Below are positions 26,235 through 32,076 of a stretch of DNA of 64,000 nt, piece after piece. The stretch comes from Kriegella aquimaris (GTDB taxonomy: Bacteria > Bacteroidota > Bacteroidia > Flavobacteriales > Flavobacteriaceae). How positions within the stretch are numbered: position 1 is the first letter of the stretch; the number at the start of each line of letters is the position of its first letter. The position numbers were made by a program, and so were the translations under genes. Where the stretch lies: the NCBI RefSeq assembly GCF_900103215.1, contig NZ_FNGV01000003.1:186001-250000 (forward strand). Reading direction: 5' to 3'. The notes beneath the pieces are model-generated. The model was not told the DNA's origin and did not search any database. It saw nothing but the letters and a program-made list of their open reading frames with translations.

Positions 26235-26900
26235 ATGACAAAAGCCGAAAAGGTTGACTTTGCAATAAAAACACTTCAAGAACTATATCCAACCATTCCT
26301 GTGCCCCTTGAGCATAAAGATCCATATACCTTATTAATAGCCGTACTACTTTCTGCGCAAAGTACCGATGTTCGTGTGAACCTGATTACCCCGCTTTTGT
26401 TTGAAAAAGCTGATAACCCTTTCGACATGATAAAATTATCGGTAGCTGAAATCAGGGAAATCATTAAGCCTGTTGGTTTATCTCCTATGAAATCAAAAGG
26501 CATTTATGGGTTATCAAAAATTCTAATAGAGAAATATGGAGGTGAAGTTCCGAAAGACATTGCCTTGTTGGAAGAACTACCTTCGGTAGGCCATAAGACC
26601 GCTAGCGTAGTGGTATCACAGGCCTTTGGCATACCTGCATTTCCTGTGGATACACATATACACCGCTTAATGTACCGATGGGGATTTTCCAATGGTAAAA
26701 ATGTTACTCAAACGGAAAAAGATGCTAAAAGGTTGTTTTCAAAAGAGTTATGGAACGACTTGCACTTACAGATAATCTGGTACGGACGTCAATATTCCCC
26801 AGCAAGAGGCTGGGATTTGGAAAAAGATATTATAACCAAAACCATAGGAAGAAAGAAGGTTCTGGATGAATATTTTAAAAACAAAAAGACCCGAAAATAA
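26235..26900 (+). CDS. nth: Endonuclease III without the Fe-S cluster cysteines
   Basis: A 221-residue DNA glycosylase/AP lyase of the HhH-GPD family for oxidised pyrimidines. The helix-hairpin-helix LPSVGHKTASVV carries the catalytic Lys121, and FPVDTHIHR carries Asp139. Canonical Nth has a C-terminal Cys-x6-Cys-x2-Cys-x5-Cys loop holding [4Fe-4S]; here the region reads GRQYSPARGWDLEKD with no cysteine at all. Catalytic residues are intact, so activity is likely, but the cluster is lost. The stop codon lies in the loop of a terminator hairpin. It is divergent from bcp. Confidence 0.9.
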   Translation: MTKAEKVDFAIKTLQELYPTIPVPLEHKDPYTLLIAVLLSAQSTDVRVNLITPLLFEKADNPFDMIKLSVAEIREIIKPVGLSPMKSKGIYGLSKILIEKYGGEVPKDIALLEELPSVGHKTASVVVSQAFGIPAFPVDTHIHRLMYRWGFSNGKNVTQTEKDAKRLFSKELWNDLHLQIIWYGRQYSPARGWDLEKDIITKTIGRKKVLDEYFKNKKTRK

Positions 26901-26910
26901 TCGGGTCTTT
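26885..26910. terminator. Terminator overlapping the nth stop codon
   Basis: A perfect 10-bp stem AAAGACCCGA/TCGGGTCTTT; the loop AAATAA contains the nth stop. The inverted repeat works on both strands, and the minus-strand sigma/small-ORF unit ends at 26913, so it probably terminates both. Confidence 0.8.
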
Positions 26911-26912
26911 AT

Positions 26913-27056
26913 CTAATTCAAAATATTTTCGAATTTAAAATTTTTGTGCTCTACAATGTGCAAAGATTTTGAATAATTCAATAAAAATTGAATAGTTTCT
27001 GTCCTCGTTGCCACAAGTTGACACCTATTTTCGTGTTGAGAGTAGATTTTTTCCAT
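26913..27056 (-). CDS. 47-residue small protein downstream of sigma factor (copy A)
   Basis: An ORF of 47 residues, too short for most gene callers, starting MEKIYSQHENRC and containing TETIQFLLNYSKSLHI. It has exactly the length and the same core (TETIQFLLNYSKSL, 14 identical residues) as the ORF at 28224-28367, which lies in the same place behind the paralogous sigma factor. It also shares the start MEx-IY and the end F(E)xxLN. Conservation across two diverged paralogous cassettes argues for real translation. It lies 73 bases after the sigma stop. Probably an amphipathic helix; role unknown. Confidence 0.65.
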   Translation of the reverse strand: MEKIYSQHENRCQLVATRTETIQFLLNYSKSLHIVEHKNFKFENILN

Positions 27057-27129
27057 AATTATAGTATTGTTATGTATTAGATAACGCAACTAAAATTAAA
27101 ATATTGTCTACTCTTTAAAAGACCAACTT

Positions 27130-27711
27130 TTAATTGGTCAGTACGATGCTATTTTTATCTATAATCTTTCTAAGATTAATAAGGGCATATCTCATTCTTC
27201 CAAGTGCCGTGTTAATGCTAACACCTGTGTTTTCCGAAATTTCTTTGAAACTCATATCCTTGTAGATACGCATAACCAATACTTCTTTTTGATCTTCTGG
27301 CAATTCTTCGATAAGGTGCTTAAGATCTTCTGTAATTTGGTCCTTTATAATTTGCTTTTCGGCATTCAACTTATCATCACCTATAACTGAAAAGATATTA
27401 AAATCGTCACTTCCCTCGAATTTGGGCATTCTTTTGTTTCTTCTGAAATGATCGATTATAAGATTGTGCGCAATTCGCATTACCCAAGGTAGAAATTTAC
27501 CTTCTTCACTATAAGTACCTTTTTTTAGCGTTTTGATAACTTTAATAAAAGTATCCTGGAAAATATCTTCCGTAACATCCCTATCCAAAACTTTTGAGTA
27601 TATAAAGCTTGTAATTCGTTGGTTATGACGGTTGATCAGAATTTCAAGAGATTTTTCGTCTCCACTGATATAATCTCTTACTAATACTGAGTCTTCAATT
27701 TGTAGTTCCAT
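27130..27711 (-). CDS. ECF sigma-70 family factor (copy A)
   Basis: A 193-residue sigma factor. Region 2 spans residues ~20-90 (YISGDEKSLEILINRHNQRI, DIFQDTFIKVIKTL, FLPWVMRIAHNLIIDHFRR). Region 4 spans ~130-185 (LPEDQKEVLVMRIYKDMSFKEISENTGVSINTALGRMRYAL). It is about 75% identical by eye to the sigma factor at 28444-29025 and the two clearly arose by duplication. No FecR-type anti-sigma gene is adjacent. The 47-residue ORF downstream is the only companion. A 7-bp perfect hairpin (27743-27760) lies ~32 bases upstream of the start. Confidence 0.92.
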   Translation of the reverse strand: MELQIEDSVLVRDYISGDEKSLEILINRHNQRITSFIYSKVLDRDVTEDIFQDTFIKVIKTLKKGTYSEEGKFLPWVMRIAHNLIIDHFRRNKRMPKFEGSDDFNIFSVIGDDKLNAEKQIIKDQITEDLKHLIEELPEDQKEVLVMRIYKDMSFKEISENTGVSINTALGRMRYALINLRKIIDKNSIVLTN

Positions 27712-28223
27712 GCCGATTACTTTTTTTTTGGTTAAGATTAAGGCTTACTTTTTAGTAAGCTGATTTAAGTTGTTAGATTTATTTTTAAGCGATTAATTAG
27801 CTTTGTTTTCTTAATTATGATCTAAAACTAGATAAAAGGGGGTGACAGAAAAAAAGTATGTTGTCAAACAGCTACTTTTTGATGTGAAACCATCATTTTC
27901 CATTTTTGTCAACAATAAATCAAGTTTTTATGTGTTGCAGTTCAAATTTGATGTGATAAAGAAGCAAACCTCCTTTATTAATTGATAAGTAGCGTGATTT
28001 TCAAAATTCATTAAAGAGCACAAAAACTGGAGCACCTGTGATTATAGCAGAATTTTTAGTATTTATATTGTAAGGTTTTACCAATAAATGAAAGTAGGGC
28101 AACTAAAAAGAAGAGAAGAAAAGACCCTAAAAGGTTTGCAACCTGCCCACAATACACTCCATTAAAACAAAAAACCTCAAAATACCAATGATTTTGAGGC
28201 TATATTAAAAGAACTGGGTTTAA
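27712..28223. other. Intergenic promoter region between the two sigma cassettes
   Basis: About 510 bases. It holds a hairpin GCTTACT-TTTT-AGTAAGC (27743-27760) in the leader of sigma copy A, and a 10-base direct repeat TTTGATGTGA at 27878 and 27947. The terminator of the second cassette (28175-28199) is at the far end. No ORF beyond chance was seen. The length and repeats suggest regulated expression of sigma copy A. Confidence 0.4.
28175..28199 (-). terminator. Terminator of the second sigma cassette
   Basis: A perfect 9-bp stem CCTCAAAAT/ATTTTGAGG with a 7-base loop. Read on the minus strand it is followed by TTTTTTG, directly after the small ORF ending at 28224. Confidence 0.8.
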
Positions 28224-28367
28224 CTAATTCAAATTACTTTCGAACTTGTGTCCTTTTATTTGCGTTATTTTTAAAGACTTTGAATAGTTCAATAAAAATT
28301 GAATGGTTTCAGACTTGGTCTTAATAAGTTCATTTTTTTCTGAATTCTTAATGTAAATTTCTTCCAT
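28224..28367 (-). CDS. 47-residue small protein downstream of sigma factor (copy B)
   Basis: A paralogue of the ORF at 26913-27056: same length, starting MEEIYIKNSEKN and sharing the core TETIQFLLNYSKSL, ending FESNLN. The shared region predicts one helix with hydrophobic positions I-F-L-L-Y. It lies 76 bases after the sigma stop and just before a terminator, so it ends the transcript. It could be an anti-sigma peptide, a translation-coupled regulator, or an unrelated small protein; nothing in the sequence decides this. Confidence 0.65.
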   Translation of the reverse strand: MEEIYIKNSEKNELIKTKSETIQFLLNYSKSLKITQIKGHKFESNLN

Positions 28368-28443
28368 AATAATTAGTTCAGTGTTGTTTGGCTAAATAAC
28401 GCCACTAAAGCAGAAGAAGTCAATACGTTCGGTATACCGTCAA

Positions 28444-29025
28444 TTAATTCGTTAAAACAATATTATTTTGATCAATTATCTTTCTGAGGTTGATTAGTGC
28501 ATAACGCATCCTACCCAGCGCCGTATTAATGCTGACCCCTGTATTTTCTGAAATTTCCTTAAAACTCATATCTCTATAGATCCGCATCATTAGAACATCT
28601 TTCTGATCTTGGGGAAGTTCTGCAATCAGCACACCCAAGTCAGTATCAATTTGATTTTTTATAATTTGTCCTTCAACATTCAATTGCTCGTCACTCATAA
28701 TAGAAAAAATATTAAAGCTTTCGTTTCCATGAAACATAGGCATTCTATTACTTTTTCTAAAGTGATCTATAATTAGGTTATGGGCTATGCGCATTACCCA
28801 AGGAAGAAACTTACCTTCTTCACTATATGTTCCCCTTTTTAAAGTTCGAATGACTTTAATAAAGGTATCTTGAAAAATATCTTCTGTAATGGTTCGATCA
28901 TTGACTTTAGAATAGATAAAACAACTTATTCGCTGATTATGCCGCTCAATCAATGTTTCCAGAGCCTTTTCGTCTCCGTTAATATATTTCTTAATAAGTA
29001 AGGAATCGTCTACCTGTGCTTCCAT
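28444..29025 (-). CDS. ECF sigma-70 family factor (copy B)
   Basis: A 193-residue paralogue of sigma copy A with identical length. Region 2 includes DIFQDTFIKVIRTLKRG and FLPWVMRIAHNLIIDHFR; region 4 includes LPQDQKDVLMMRIYRDMSFKEISENTGVSINTALG. Region 4 recognition helices are essentially identical between copies, so both should bind similar -35 elements, while residues ~95-135 differ. The leader carries a 6-bp perfect hairpin CTGATA-GT-TATCAG (29064-29077), about 39 bases from the start. It is divergent from uvrA. Confidence 0.92.
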   Translation of the reverse strand: MEAQVDDSLLIKKYINGDEKALETLIERHNQRISCFIYSKVNDRTITEDIFQDTFIKVIRTLKRGTYSEEGKFLPWVMRIAHNLIIDHFRKSNRMPMFHGNESFNIFSIMSDEQLNVEGQIIKNQIDTDLGVLIAELPQDQKDVLMMRIYRDMSFKEISENTGVSINTALGRMRYALINLRKIIDQNNIVLTN

Positions 29026-29264
29026 ATCAATTACTTTTTGGTTAAAACTAGTGTTCTCTTATCCTGATAGTTATCAGAAGTAGAGGTTCTTGGGGTTAAA
29101 ATCTAATTTTTAAAAAGTAATTGTATATGCTATAGGCCTTTAGGATTTAGTGTTTAATAGAATTCAAATATAGAAAAAATTAAATGGTATCAAAAAAATT
29201 GTGATGCCATACACACAATATTAATGCCATCTATACATTTTTCGTTATTGAAATGTACATATTG

Positions 29265-29272
29265 TATCTTTG
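29265..29272 (+). promoter_or_regulatory. -7 box (TATCTTTG) of uvrA
   Basis: TATCTTTG matches TAnnTTTG exactly, 18 bases before the ATG at 29290, implying a very short leader. A TTG lies at 29248-29250, closer than the usual spacer. This also argues against the upstream in-frame ATG at 29224. Confidence 0.5.
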
Positions 29273-29289
29273 CCAACTTAAATACGAGT

Positions 29290-32076
29290 ATGTCGACGAT
29301 TCTAGATGTTAACCCCAAAGAAAATATTATTATCAAAGGTGCCAATCTGCACAATTTGAAGAATATAGACGTGGTTATTCCGCGAAATAAGCTTGTTGTA
29401 ATTACCGGACTTTCGGGTTCGGGTAAGTCTAGTCTTGCTTTTGACACATTATACGCAGAAGGACAACGAAGGTATGTTGAGAGCTTATCATCATACGCAA
29501 GACAGTTTTTGGGGAAACTCGACAAACCAAAGGTTGACTATATTAAAGGTATAGCTCCCGCCATTGCCATAGAACAAAAAGTAAATTCGACCAATCCTCG
29601 CTCTACAGTAGGCACCACAACCGAAATTTACGACTACTTAAAACTTCTTTATGCCCGTATCGGAAAGACAATTAGCCCGATTTCAGGTGAAGAGGTGAAG
29701 AAGCATACCGTAACCGACGTTATAAATTATATCAAAACCTACGATCAGGAAACTAAATTATTGCTGTTGGCGCCTATTATCGTCAAGAAAGAAAGAGATC
29801 CCTTCAAAACCTTGCAGTTATTCTCTAAACAAGGATACGCCAGAATAAAATATAAAGGAGAGGTGTTGCGTATCGATGCTGCTCCAGAAAATATAGGTAG
29901 GGAGTTTTATCTCGTAGTCGATCGGATTATTACAAAAAACGATGAAGACTTTTATAATAGGTTGGCCAATGCGGTGGATACTGCTTTCTTTGAGGGCAAA
30001 GGTGAATGTATTATTGAGGATTTGAAAACCGAAAAACAGGTGCCTTTTAGTAATAATTTCGAGTTGGATGGAATGCAATTCCTTGAACCGAATGTTCATT
30101 TATTCAGCTTTAATAATCCCTATGGGGCATGTCCTAAATGTGAAGGGTACGGAGATGTCATAGGTATCGACGAAGACCTTGTCATACCAAATACTGCACT
30201 TTCTGTTTATGAGAACGCCGTATTTCCATGGCGGGGCGAAAGTATGGGTTGGTACAGGGACCAACTCGTGAATTCGGCTTACAAATTTGATTTTCCGATT
30301 CACAAACCTTGGTTTGAGCTTTCAGATGCACAAAAACAATTGGTTTGGGAAGGTAATGATCACTTTATTGGGTTGCACAATTTCTTTGGAATGCTCGAAG
30401 AGAAAAGTTACAAAATACAGAACAGGGTAATGCTTTCCCGATATCGCGGAAAGACTAAATGTAATGTATGTAAAGGCAAACGTTTACGAAAAGAAACCGA
30501 TTATGTAAAGGTTGGGGGTGAATCGATTTCTGGTCTCGTCGAACTTCCTATTTCCGATCTCACTACTTTCTTTAATGCACTCGTTCTAGAGAAACATGAC
30601 GGGCAAATAGCCTCTCGTCTACTTAAGGAAATTATAACCCGCTTAGGGTTCTTAAACAATGTAGGGTTAAATTACCTCACACTGAACAGAAAATCAAATA
30701 CCTTGTCCGGGGGTGAAAGTCAACGTATCAATTTAGCCACTTCTTTGGGCAGTAGCCTTGTTGGTTCGATGTATATACTTGACGAACCCAGTATAGGTTT
30801 GCATCCAAAAGACACCGAAAACCTCATCGAAGTATTAAAATCACTTCGCGATTTGGGAAATACGGTAATTGTGGTTGAACACGACGAAGATATTATGAAA
30901 GCTGCCGATGAAGTAATAGACATTGGCCCTGAGGCCGGCACCCATGGCGGTGAAGTCGTTGCACACGGTACCCTTGACGAAATCTTATTGTCTTCTTCAT
31001 TGACTGCCAGTTATTTGAATGGCACTAAAGAAATTGAAATACCAAAAAAACGCCGTACTTCACAACAATTTATTGAAATAAAAGGAGCACGAGAAAATAA
31101 CCTCAAAAATATTGATGTCACTTTTCCCTTAAATATGCTCACTGTTGTCACTGGAGTTTCGGGGAGTGGAAAAAGCACCCTGGTAAAAAAATTGTTATAT
31201 CCTATCATTCTTAAAAAAGTTGGAGGTTACGGTGAAAAAGCTGGGCAATATACTTCTGTAGAAGGAAAATATCAGTCTATCAAACATGTTGAATTTGTTG
31301 ACCAAAATCCTATTGGACGGTCATCACGATCGAACCCTGTCACTTATATCAAGGCCTATGACGACATTCGGAATTTGTTTGCTTCACAAAAGCTAAGTAA
31401 AATCAGGGGCTATCAGGCTAAGCATTTTTCTTTTAATGTGGATGGGGGTCGCTGTGAAAAATGTAAAGGAGAAGGCGAAATAACGGTGGAAATGCAGTTC
31501 ATGGCCGACGTTCATCTTGAATGTGAAACATGCGGAGGTAAACGTTTTAAGAAAGAAGTACTTGAGGTAAAGTTTGAAGATGCATCTATCGACAATGTGC
31601 TCAACATGACCATAGACGATGCTATTGCCTTCTTTGAATTGCATAGTCAAACCAGAATTACCAACAAATTGAAGCCATTACAAGATGTCGGTTTGGGCTA
31701 TGTCACTTTAGGGCAGTCATCCTCTACCCTATCGGGCGGCGAAGCGCAACGTATCAAGTTGGCTTCCTTCTTGGTCAAAGGCACCACTAAGGATAAAGCT
31801 TTGTTCATTTTTGATGAACCTACAACGGGACTCCATTTTCACGATATCAAAAAATTATTAAAGTCGTTCGATGCCCTTATTTCAAAAGGACATTCAATTG
31901 TCGTGATCGAGCATAATATAGAACTTATTAAATGTGCCGATTATATTATCGACCTTGGTCTCGAAGGAGGAGCGACTGGTGGGCAGCTTATTGTTCAAGG
32001 CACTCCAGAAGAAATAATAAAGAATAAAATTTCACATACTGCACGCTATTTAAAGGAAAAATTATTGGCCCGCTAG
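29290..32076 (+). CDS. uvrA: UvrA, excinuclease ABC subunit A
   Basis: A 928-residue damage-recognition ATPase of nucleotide excision repair. Two ABC-type ATPase halves: Walker [10 protein letters not shown] near residue 44 and GVSGSGKST later. ABC signatures are LSGGESQR and LSGGEAQR, and Walker B motifs are [11 protein letters not shown] and [11 protein letters not shown]. Zinc-finger cysteines are at [16 protein letters not shown] and [17 protein letters not shown]. The length is the family norm (~940). The start at 29290 ([12 protein letters not shown]) was chosen because homologues begin near there and a promoter box precedes it by 18 bases. Single-gene unit. Confidence 0.97.

Follow-up and report, generated by a model that had tools for sequence, protein, structure and literature searches.

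SigP is an ECF sigma factor that drives type IX secretion genes in Porphyromonas gingivalis (PMC4800418, PMC7712824). In this organism, the response regulator PorX binds SigP and, without PorX, the SigP protein is barely detectable, 40% of its mRNA being left (PMC4800418). Candidate anti-sigma genes located downstream have been named for four other P. gingivalis ECF sigma factors, and none for SigP in the accessible part of the report concerned (PMC7712824). Moreover, neither an anti-sigma factor nor another small partner of SigP figures in the accessible parts of papers dealing with the PorXY-SigP system (PMC5607195, PMC4800418, PMC8265659, PMC7712824, PMC7323717, PMC10951265).

Anti-sigma factors have been compared across phyla. 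In class I anti-sigma domains, helices 1-3 bind sigma4 and helix 4 binds regions 2.1/2.2 of sigma2, the latter contact being likely to block core binding (PMC7406223). A domain of this class is found nearby for only 6% of Bacteroidetes ECF sigma factors versus 32% over all phyla (PMC7406223). Smaller arrangements are also described. The class II factor CnrY is a two-helix minimal anti-sigma factor whose last helix binds sigma2 (PMC7406223). In the alphaproteobacterial PhyR-NepR-EcfG system, a small anti-sigma factor and a response regulator act on an ECF sigma factor (PMC4814048).

Here, we describe small genes that follow many SigP-type sigma genes of a bacterial class, starting from two cassettes of Kriegella aquimaris. 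In the open-access literature, as far as its text is accessible, no description of such a small protein was found; subscription papers and preprints lay outside the scope of the search.

Two SigP-type cassettes in Kriegella aquimaris

The window analysed is a stretch of 64,000 nucleotides of K. aquimaris (contig NZ_FNGV01000003.1, positions 186,001 to 250,000). A first-pass annotation of its sequence had described two sigma paralogues of 193 residues, each followed on the minus strand by a 47-codon ORF 73 or 76 nt downstream, and each cassette closing with a hairpin. The coordinates confirm this layout (Table 1), the gap between sigma gene and small ORF being 76 nt in the first cassette and 73 nt in the second, and a consensus scan places a terminator-like hairpin with a T-rich tail at the end of both. 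The same scan lists no such hairpin between either sigma gene and its small ORF; it uses a simple consensus and gives 5 sites in 3.4 kb, compared with 2.0 (sd 2.0) in shuffles. With a hairpin after each small ORF and none between the ORF and the sigma gene, one transcript per cassette is plausible.

Table 1. Features of the two cassettes and their neighbours (window coordinates).
Feature	Coordinates	Strand	Basis
SigP-type ECF sigma factor, first (upstream) copy, 193 aa	28444..29025	(-)	Pfam Sigma70_r2 and Sigma70_r4
Small protein, first copy, 47 aa	28224..28367 (stop codon included)	(-)	Family profile, dN/dS, C-terminal Asn
Terminator-like hairpin closing the first cassette, 22 nt past the small ORF	28173..28201	(-)	Consensus scan only
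SigP-type ECF sigma factor, second (downstream) copy, 193 aa	27130..27711	(-)	Pfam domains, tandem clade
Small protein, second copy, 47 aa	26913..27056 (stop codon included)	(-)	As for the first copy
Terminator-like hairpin closing the second cassette, 2 nt past the small ORF	26885..26910	(-)	Consensus scan only
Neighbouring UvrA-like gene	29224-32076	(+)	Name from sequence reading
Neighbouring endonuclease III-like gene	26235-26900	(+)	Name from sequence reading

Both window sigma proteins consist of a region 2 and a region 4 domain and carry no long additional domain. They are identical at 148 of 193 residues, and at 32 of the 33 residues of the helix-turn-helix (150-182), so that the two copies probably read the same -35 element. 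The two small proteins are identical at 26 of 47 positions over their full length. Their unbroken common core, ETIQFLLNYSKSL, spans 13 residues; since the preceding residue is T in copy 1 and S in copy 2, the 14 shared residues initially claimed were off by one.

Close orthologues of the window sigma factor (E<=1e-40) occur in 103 of 119 genomes of the class. Among 60 relatives, 58 match at E<=0.001, and 35 of the 37 members of the family taken for Flavobacteriaceae (f1) do so at E<=1e-40. The primers used for P. gingivalis sigP give the protein ends MSSFHKLTD and MGMSA (PMC8265659). An exact search of the named genomes gave no match, and a degenerate search pointed to one locus only, which belongs to Porphyromonas gulae DSM 15663 and encodes a sigma factor of 193 residues with exactly these ends. 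A gene that reads as PFK-like lies 146 nt upstream of it, the corresponding distance in P. gingivalis being 149 nt (PMC8265659). P. gulae SigP is 43% identical to the first window copy over 185 columns. Its best match is the locus studied here in 20 genomes out of 20 (E 1.4e-39 to 1.7e-55), and the next ECF sigma factor of these genomes comes at 1.4e-18; in genome G000, the two best matches are the two window copies. By sequence comparison, then, the window sigma factors are two co-orthologues of Porphyromonas SigP. For F. johnsoniae, a single SigP homologue is mentioned (PMC10951265).

The tandem pair is present in six of the 37 f1 genomes. Its 12 sigma copies form one clade (support 100/97) and, within it, five of the six upstream copies group together (100/97), the exception being genome G026. 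In five tandem genomes, chosen by hand and leaving out G026 because its upstream sigma factor groups apart, the small proteins occupying the same position are closest to each other in 10 of 10 genome pairs. The small proteins thus track the position of the sigma genes. Judging from these sequences, sigma gene and small gene would most simply have been duplicated as a unit and stayed paired. This duplication is local, whereas the association between SigP-type sigma genes and small ORFs extends much further.

As in the PorXY-SigP system of P. gingivalis, a sigma factor of the SigP group coexists in K. aquimaris with a PglZ protein, encoded by an open frame of 514 aa. A PglZ match (PF08665) was used as a proxy for PorX in 100 genomes counted by hand. 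Such a match is present in every one of the 76 genomes that have a close orthologue of SigP, 12 class genomes having been hand-picked as SigP positives in this set, and in 14 of the 24 genomes without one (Fisher p 1e-7, uncorrected for relatedness). Of the 10 genomes devoid of both, six are smaller than 2 Mb and another has a completeness of 80%. One of the matching proteins, taken in full, reads as a response regulator fused to PglZ (516 aa). The translocon gene sprA was found in 28 of 30 genomes. One genome (G134) has SigP and PglZ without sprA, and another (G023) has sprA with neither SigP nor PglZ, which indicates that the SigP-PorX module and type IX secretion do not strictly go together.

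A small-protein family behind SigP-type sigma genes

Neither Pfam nor NCBIfam holds a model matching the 47-residue proteins of the window (P0001 and P0002). With an iterated profile, family members were found at E<0.005 behind 98 of 168 SigP-type sigma genes across the class, a count that is partly circular because ORFs of this kind went into the training of the profile, and from which two loci (L001 and L150) were omitted as doubles. The opposite strand of the same downstream stretches gave no family-profile match. The 168 genes lie on 161 loci, chosen by tblastn at E<1e-25 to three SigP-type queries. The sample includes 29 new loci (L051-L079) and 40 more from a class search with 103 matching genomes, and the best 30 loci from a further search, also with 103 matching genomes. 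Behind the 70 sigma genes where the cut-off was missed, some loci carry diverged long forms or Bacteroidales forms, some carry nothing recognisable, and a few lie near the end of a contig or locus.

A search with P0001 alone, which escapes this circularity, gave a match at E<=0.1 in 20 of 60 genomes, its own included; the position is known for all but eight genomes, and two of the weakest matches (G055 and G058) lie away from the sigma locus. A genome-wide scan of the 60 relatives, using a profile that contains many of the matched rows, gave 50 matches in 43 genomes, 48 of them at the SigP locus. The other two are a genuine-looking member in G055 and a weak match in G025 (E 0.0021). By both searches, the K. 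aquimaris genome has two family members in all. In G055, the SigP gene (locus L049) lacks a neighbour of this kind, and a family member ending in -IHLN is encoded on another contig, which argues for a product acting in trans.

In f1, a family match is present in 31 of the 35 genomes that have a SigP orthologue (E<=1e-40) and in neither of the two genomes without one. These small ORFs are on the same strand as the sigma gene and mostly 45-50 codons long. One f1 genome (G020) has a diverged form, and in three (G004, G016, G035) no family ORF was found behind the sigma gene. Outside f1, many loci of the class, but not all, carry a form whose length is mostly 44-90 codons. The 98 family proteins measure 39-93 aa (median 53.5) and their ORFs start 11-374 nt past the sigma gene (median 71). 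Since the first in-frame ATG was taken, the extreme values may reflect wrong starts; for instance, the L104 protein has 39 aa from the first ATG and 77 aa from an upstream ATG overlapping the sigma gene. An A at position -3 precedes 24 of 40 family ORFs, and 30 of 98 overall. Gene neighbours downstream of the small ORF vary between lineages.

In relatives tentatively assigned to Bacteroidales, the orthologous sigma gene is followed by a variant, TLDFLRxFARxY...LN. Downstream of P. gulae sigP, 97 nt away, an ORF of 46 aa matches the Bacteroidales profile over 12 residues (10 bits), as one of four ORFs tested, and is missed by the wider family profile. On this short match, the 46 aa ORF is a weak and tentative candidate for a small partner of P. 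gulae SigP.

The small ORFs bear marks of coding selection. Between the window copies dN/dS is 0.19, at a dS of 1.85 that comes close to saturating the synonymous sites. Over 18 hand-picked pairs, four of them saturated at synonymous sites, the pooled value is 0.21, single pairs reaching 0.62. For equal-length pairs, the ratio is 0.21 in the ORFs' own frame, 1.03 in frame +1 and 1.59 in frame +2. The purifying selection suspected in the first-pass annotation is thereby upheld: the frame is conserved and a synonymous bias is present, two features whose absence, according to that annotation, would have marked the ORFs as chance. Moreover, the last residue is Asn in 91 of the 98 family members, encoded by AAT in 50 and AAC in 41 and followed by any of the three stop codons, against 4 of 43 among window ORFs of 150 aa or more. 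It is thus well supported that the 47-residue proteins belong to a real family of small proteins paired with SigP-type sigma factors.

Longer relatives and anti-sigma domains

At 12 loci, the ORF occupying the same place encodes 74-90 aa and displays a front pattern FTxxDLIRYxYxE...L..D..L...Y. At L118, it encodes a form of 194 aa with a hydrophobic stretch read as membrane-spanning. These 13 long forms, picked by eye, were aligned; 10 of them do not end in Asn. The L036 protein (88 aa) combines the long front with the end of the short forms, including -ILN, and so connects the two kinds. It matches the family profile at 1.5e-16, an iterated profile that may contain L036, and at 3.3e-10 when the A2 profile is used, whose 55 hand-chosen rows include it.

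Profile searches of the long forms gave the following. With NCBIfam anti-sigma models, all matches are below the curated cut-offs (L118, 1.9e-4; L036, 0.0033 and 0.13; L104, 0.022). As for other long forms, the sole NCBIfam match of L101 (0.036) is to a resistance enzyme unrelated to anti-sigma factors, and there is none for L109 and L089. With Pfam, L112 matches zf-HC2 (0.022) and MarR_2 (0.08); of ten long forms searched, seven have no match, and L104 and L108 have one unrelated weak match each. The long-form profile found no anti-sigma factor among PDB sequences, its 13 matches being de novo helical barrels, lactate dehydrogenases and other unrelated proteins.

The AlphaFold2 model of L036, built from the 13-row alignment, has helices at 7-14, 20-32, 34-52 and 59-87 (pLDDT 84.7, pTM 0.55). 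In a Foldseek search with this model, the 15 top-ranked matches are without exception ECF anti-sigma domains (RslA, RskA, ChrR, MucA, RsiW), with probabilities of 0.21-0.96 and E-values of at least 0.25. VIA Z scores are 7.0 for RslA, 6.4 for MucA, 6.2 for RsiW and 6.2 for a second MucA entry. Structure scores of this size (E>=0.25, Z<=7) are suggestive only, since chance can produce them between helical bundles. The 47-residue protein is modelled with one helix at 3-7, another at 19-31 and a tail resembling a hairpin (pLDDT 77.5, pTM 0.41); the small proteins thus have two predicted helices, at modest confidence, and not the four of an anti-sigma domain. Among the best 50 of 92 Foldseek rows obtained with this model, there was no anti-sigma factor and nothing informative. 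Finally, in a mutual-information scan between sigma factor and small protein, the top 25 pairs fall in the linker (10), the N-terminus (6), region 4 (5) and region 2 (4) of the sigma factor; these pairs exceed shuffled pairings, relatedness not being removed, and region 2 is not singled out.

The resemblance of the longer relatives to anti-sigma domains strengthens an anti-sigma reading of the small proteins. Homology of the small family to anti-sigma domains is probable, being suggested rather than proven. The role of missing regulator that the first-pass annotation considered for the small protein is plausible.

Possible roles of the small protein

The explanation that we favour, and consider fairly likely, is that each cassette encodes an ECF sigma factor of the SigP group and its cognate minimal anti-sigma factor, a shrunken form of the class I type, which would inhibit it. 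The 47-residue protein would be what is left of a class I type domain after loss of helices 1-3. It would have retained a conserved start with the pattern M-x-K-x-[YF]-[ST] and, of the four helices, the last one, which is amphipathic and reads ETIxFLLNYSKAL; a short tail, mostly ending in Leu-Asn, comes after it. This helix may bind sigma region 2.1/2.2, with which the sigma factor grips the clamp of RNA polymerase, and the bound protein would keep the sigma factor off the core polymerase. A signal would then displace it, possibly via the PorX response regulator, for which binding to SigP is described in P. gingivalis (PMC4800418).

Several described systems are close to such an arrangement. 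As for the class I domains of RseA, RskA, RslA, MucA, RsiW and ChrR, the small gene is adjacent to, and just downstream of, its ECF sigma gene. The longer relative L036 is predicted to have the four-helix order of these domains, which are its best structure matches, though at E-values of 0.25 or more. Unlike them, the 47-residue proteins lack helices 1-3 in the model and have no Pfam or NCBIfam match. CnrY, a membrane-anchored protein, differs from the 47-residue proteins, which have, by eye, no hydrophobic segment long enough for a membrane span. NepR is a small protein as well, of about 60 aa. Pfam holds a NepR model, and at E<=1 neither NepR nor any other Pfam family was matched by P0001 or P0002. 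The response regulator PhyR carries a sigma-like domain. PorX differs from it in carrying a PglZ domain (PMC7712824). In the system of PhyR (PMC4814048), as in the one proposed here, a small anti-sigma factor and a response regulator converge on an ECF sigma factor. The part kept in the 47-residue proteins would correspond to the sigma2-binding helix 4 of class I domains (PMC7406223), and as two-helix minimal anti-sigma factors the proteins would resemble CnrY.

A more specific form of the anti-sigma reading, which we put forward as tentative, is that the PorX-SigP system has a third component so far missed, namely the class-wide family of the 47-residue proteins. Such a protein would be a minimal anti-sigma factor with a sigma2-blocking helix, and its conserved terminal Asn would be read by a protease or by PorX, SigP being thereby freed or protected. 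The co-occurrence of SigP and PglZ across the 100 genomes speaks in favour of this form.

Alternatively, the small protein may be a proteolysis adaptor or tag that binds the sigma factor and offers its C-terminal -Leu-Asn to a protease, the sigma factor being degraded unless PorX shields it. The strong preference for a final Asn (91 of 98, with both codons and all three stops, against a window background of 4 of 43) would suit this function, as would the near absence of P. gingivalis SigP without PorX despite 40% of the mRNA, and the binding of PorX to SigP (PMC4800418). However, seven of the 98 family members end differently, as do 10 of the 13 long forms, and the conserved end might instead serve folding or binding, the model drawing the tail as a hairpin. 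We regard the adaptor function as unlikely. It is distinctly improbable that the small protein is a positive partner of the sigma factor, a stabiliser or activator, with no inhibitor involved: the conservation and pairing data suit any dedicated sigma partner, but the resemblance that stands out in the structure searches is to anti-sigma domains.

A leader peptide or a structured 3' UTR element making no functional protein would agree with the small size and with the position just ahead of a terminator-like hairpin. This reading is very improbable, and was rejected as far as sequence allows, in view of protein-level selection in one frame only, downstream neighbours that differ by lineage, the G055 member encoded on another contig away from SigP, and the absence of any Rfam match in the window. 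Chance ORFs, for which 47 codons is short enough, other ORFs of 30-60 codons being abundant, are a practically untenable explanation given conservation behind 98 of 168 sigma genes, a low dN/dS in a single frame and the conserved Asn end.

The small gene described here follows SigP-type sigma genes over much of the class, and neither Pfam nor NCBIfam has a model for it. In P. gingivalis, a bacterium of gum disease, SigP controls type IX secretion, and the accessible parts of the literature name no anti-sigma factor for it. If the anti-sigma reading is true, the SigP group would be served by a very small anti-sigma factor, with longer relatives surviving in sister lineages. The position of the small gene behind SigP makes the anti-sigma question directly testable in harmless model flavobacteria.

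Sigma copies and the stretch 5′ of the small ORFs

Among the six genomes with tandem cassettes, the upstream sigma copy of G026 (locus L006) groups apart from the other five upstream copies, a placement that may reflect gene conversion or a separate duplication. It was also observed that a AACAATACT-like stretch recurs about 10-20 nt 5′ of the small-ORF ATG in the tandem genomes.

Variant, candidate and non-adjacent small proteins

Over a short segment (KQILDKLKLMAR), the candidate ORF of Porphyromonas gulae resembles the small proteins that related genomes encode. The long protein of locus L118 has an anti-sigma-like front and a hydrophobic stretch, and may represent an ancestral, membrane-bound state. 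In genome G055, no sigma gene adjoins the family member, and SigP is without a small-ORF neighbour.

Location of the features (L-numbers, fetched loci)
Feature	Location	Strand
AACAATACT-like stretch	window, upstream of 27056 and 28367; also L002-L005	- (window)
46 aa ORF, 97 nt 3′ of P. gulae sigP	L186:3158-3298	+
194 aa protein in small-ORF place	L118:894-1475	-
Family member, end LLNYSKSAKAVAIGGERWLIHLN	L190:3212-3457 (G055 contig 2)	-

Regulators and type IX secretion

The single-contig genome G023 has the translocon gene sprA but lacks both a close SigP and PglZ (the PorX proxy); G134 has SigP and PglZ and lacks sprA. Type IX secretion can thus be separated from the SigP/PglZ regulators.
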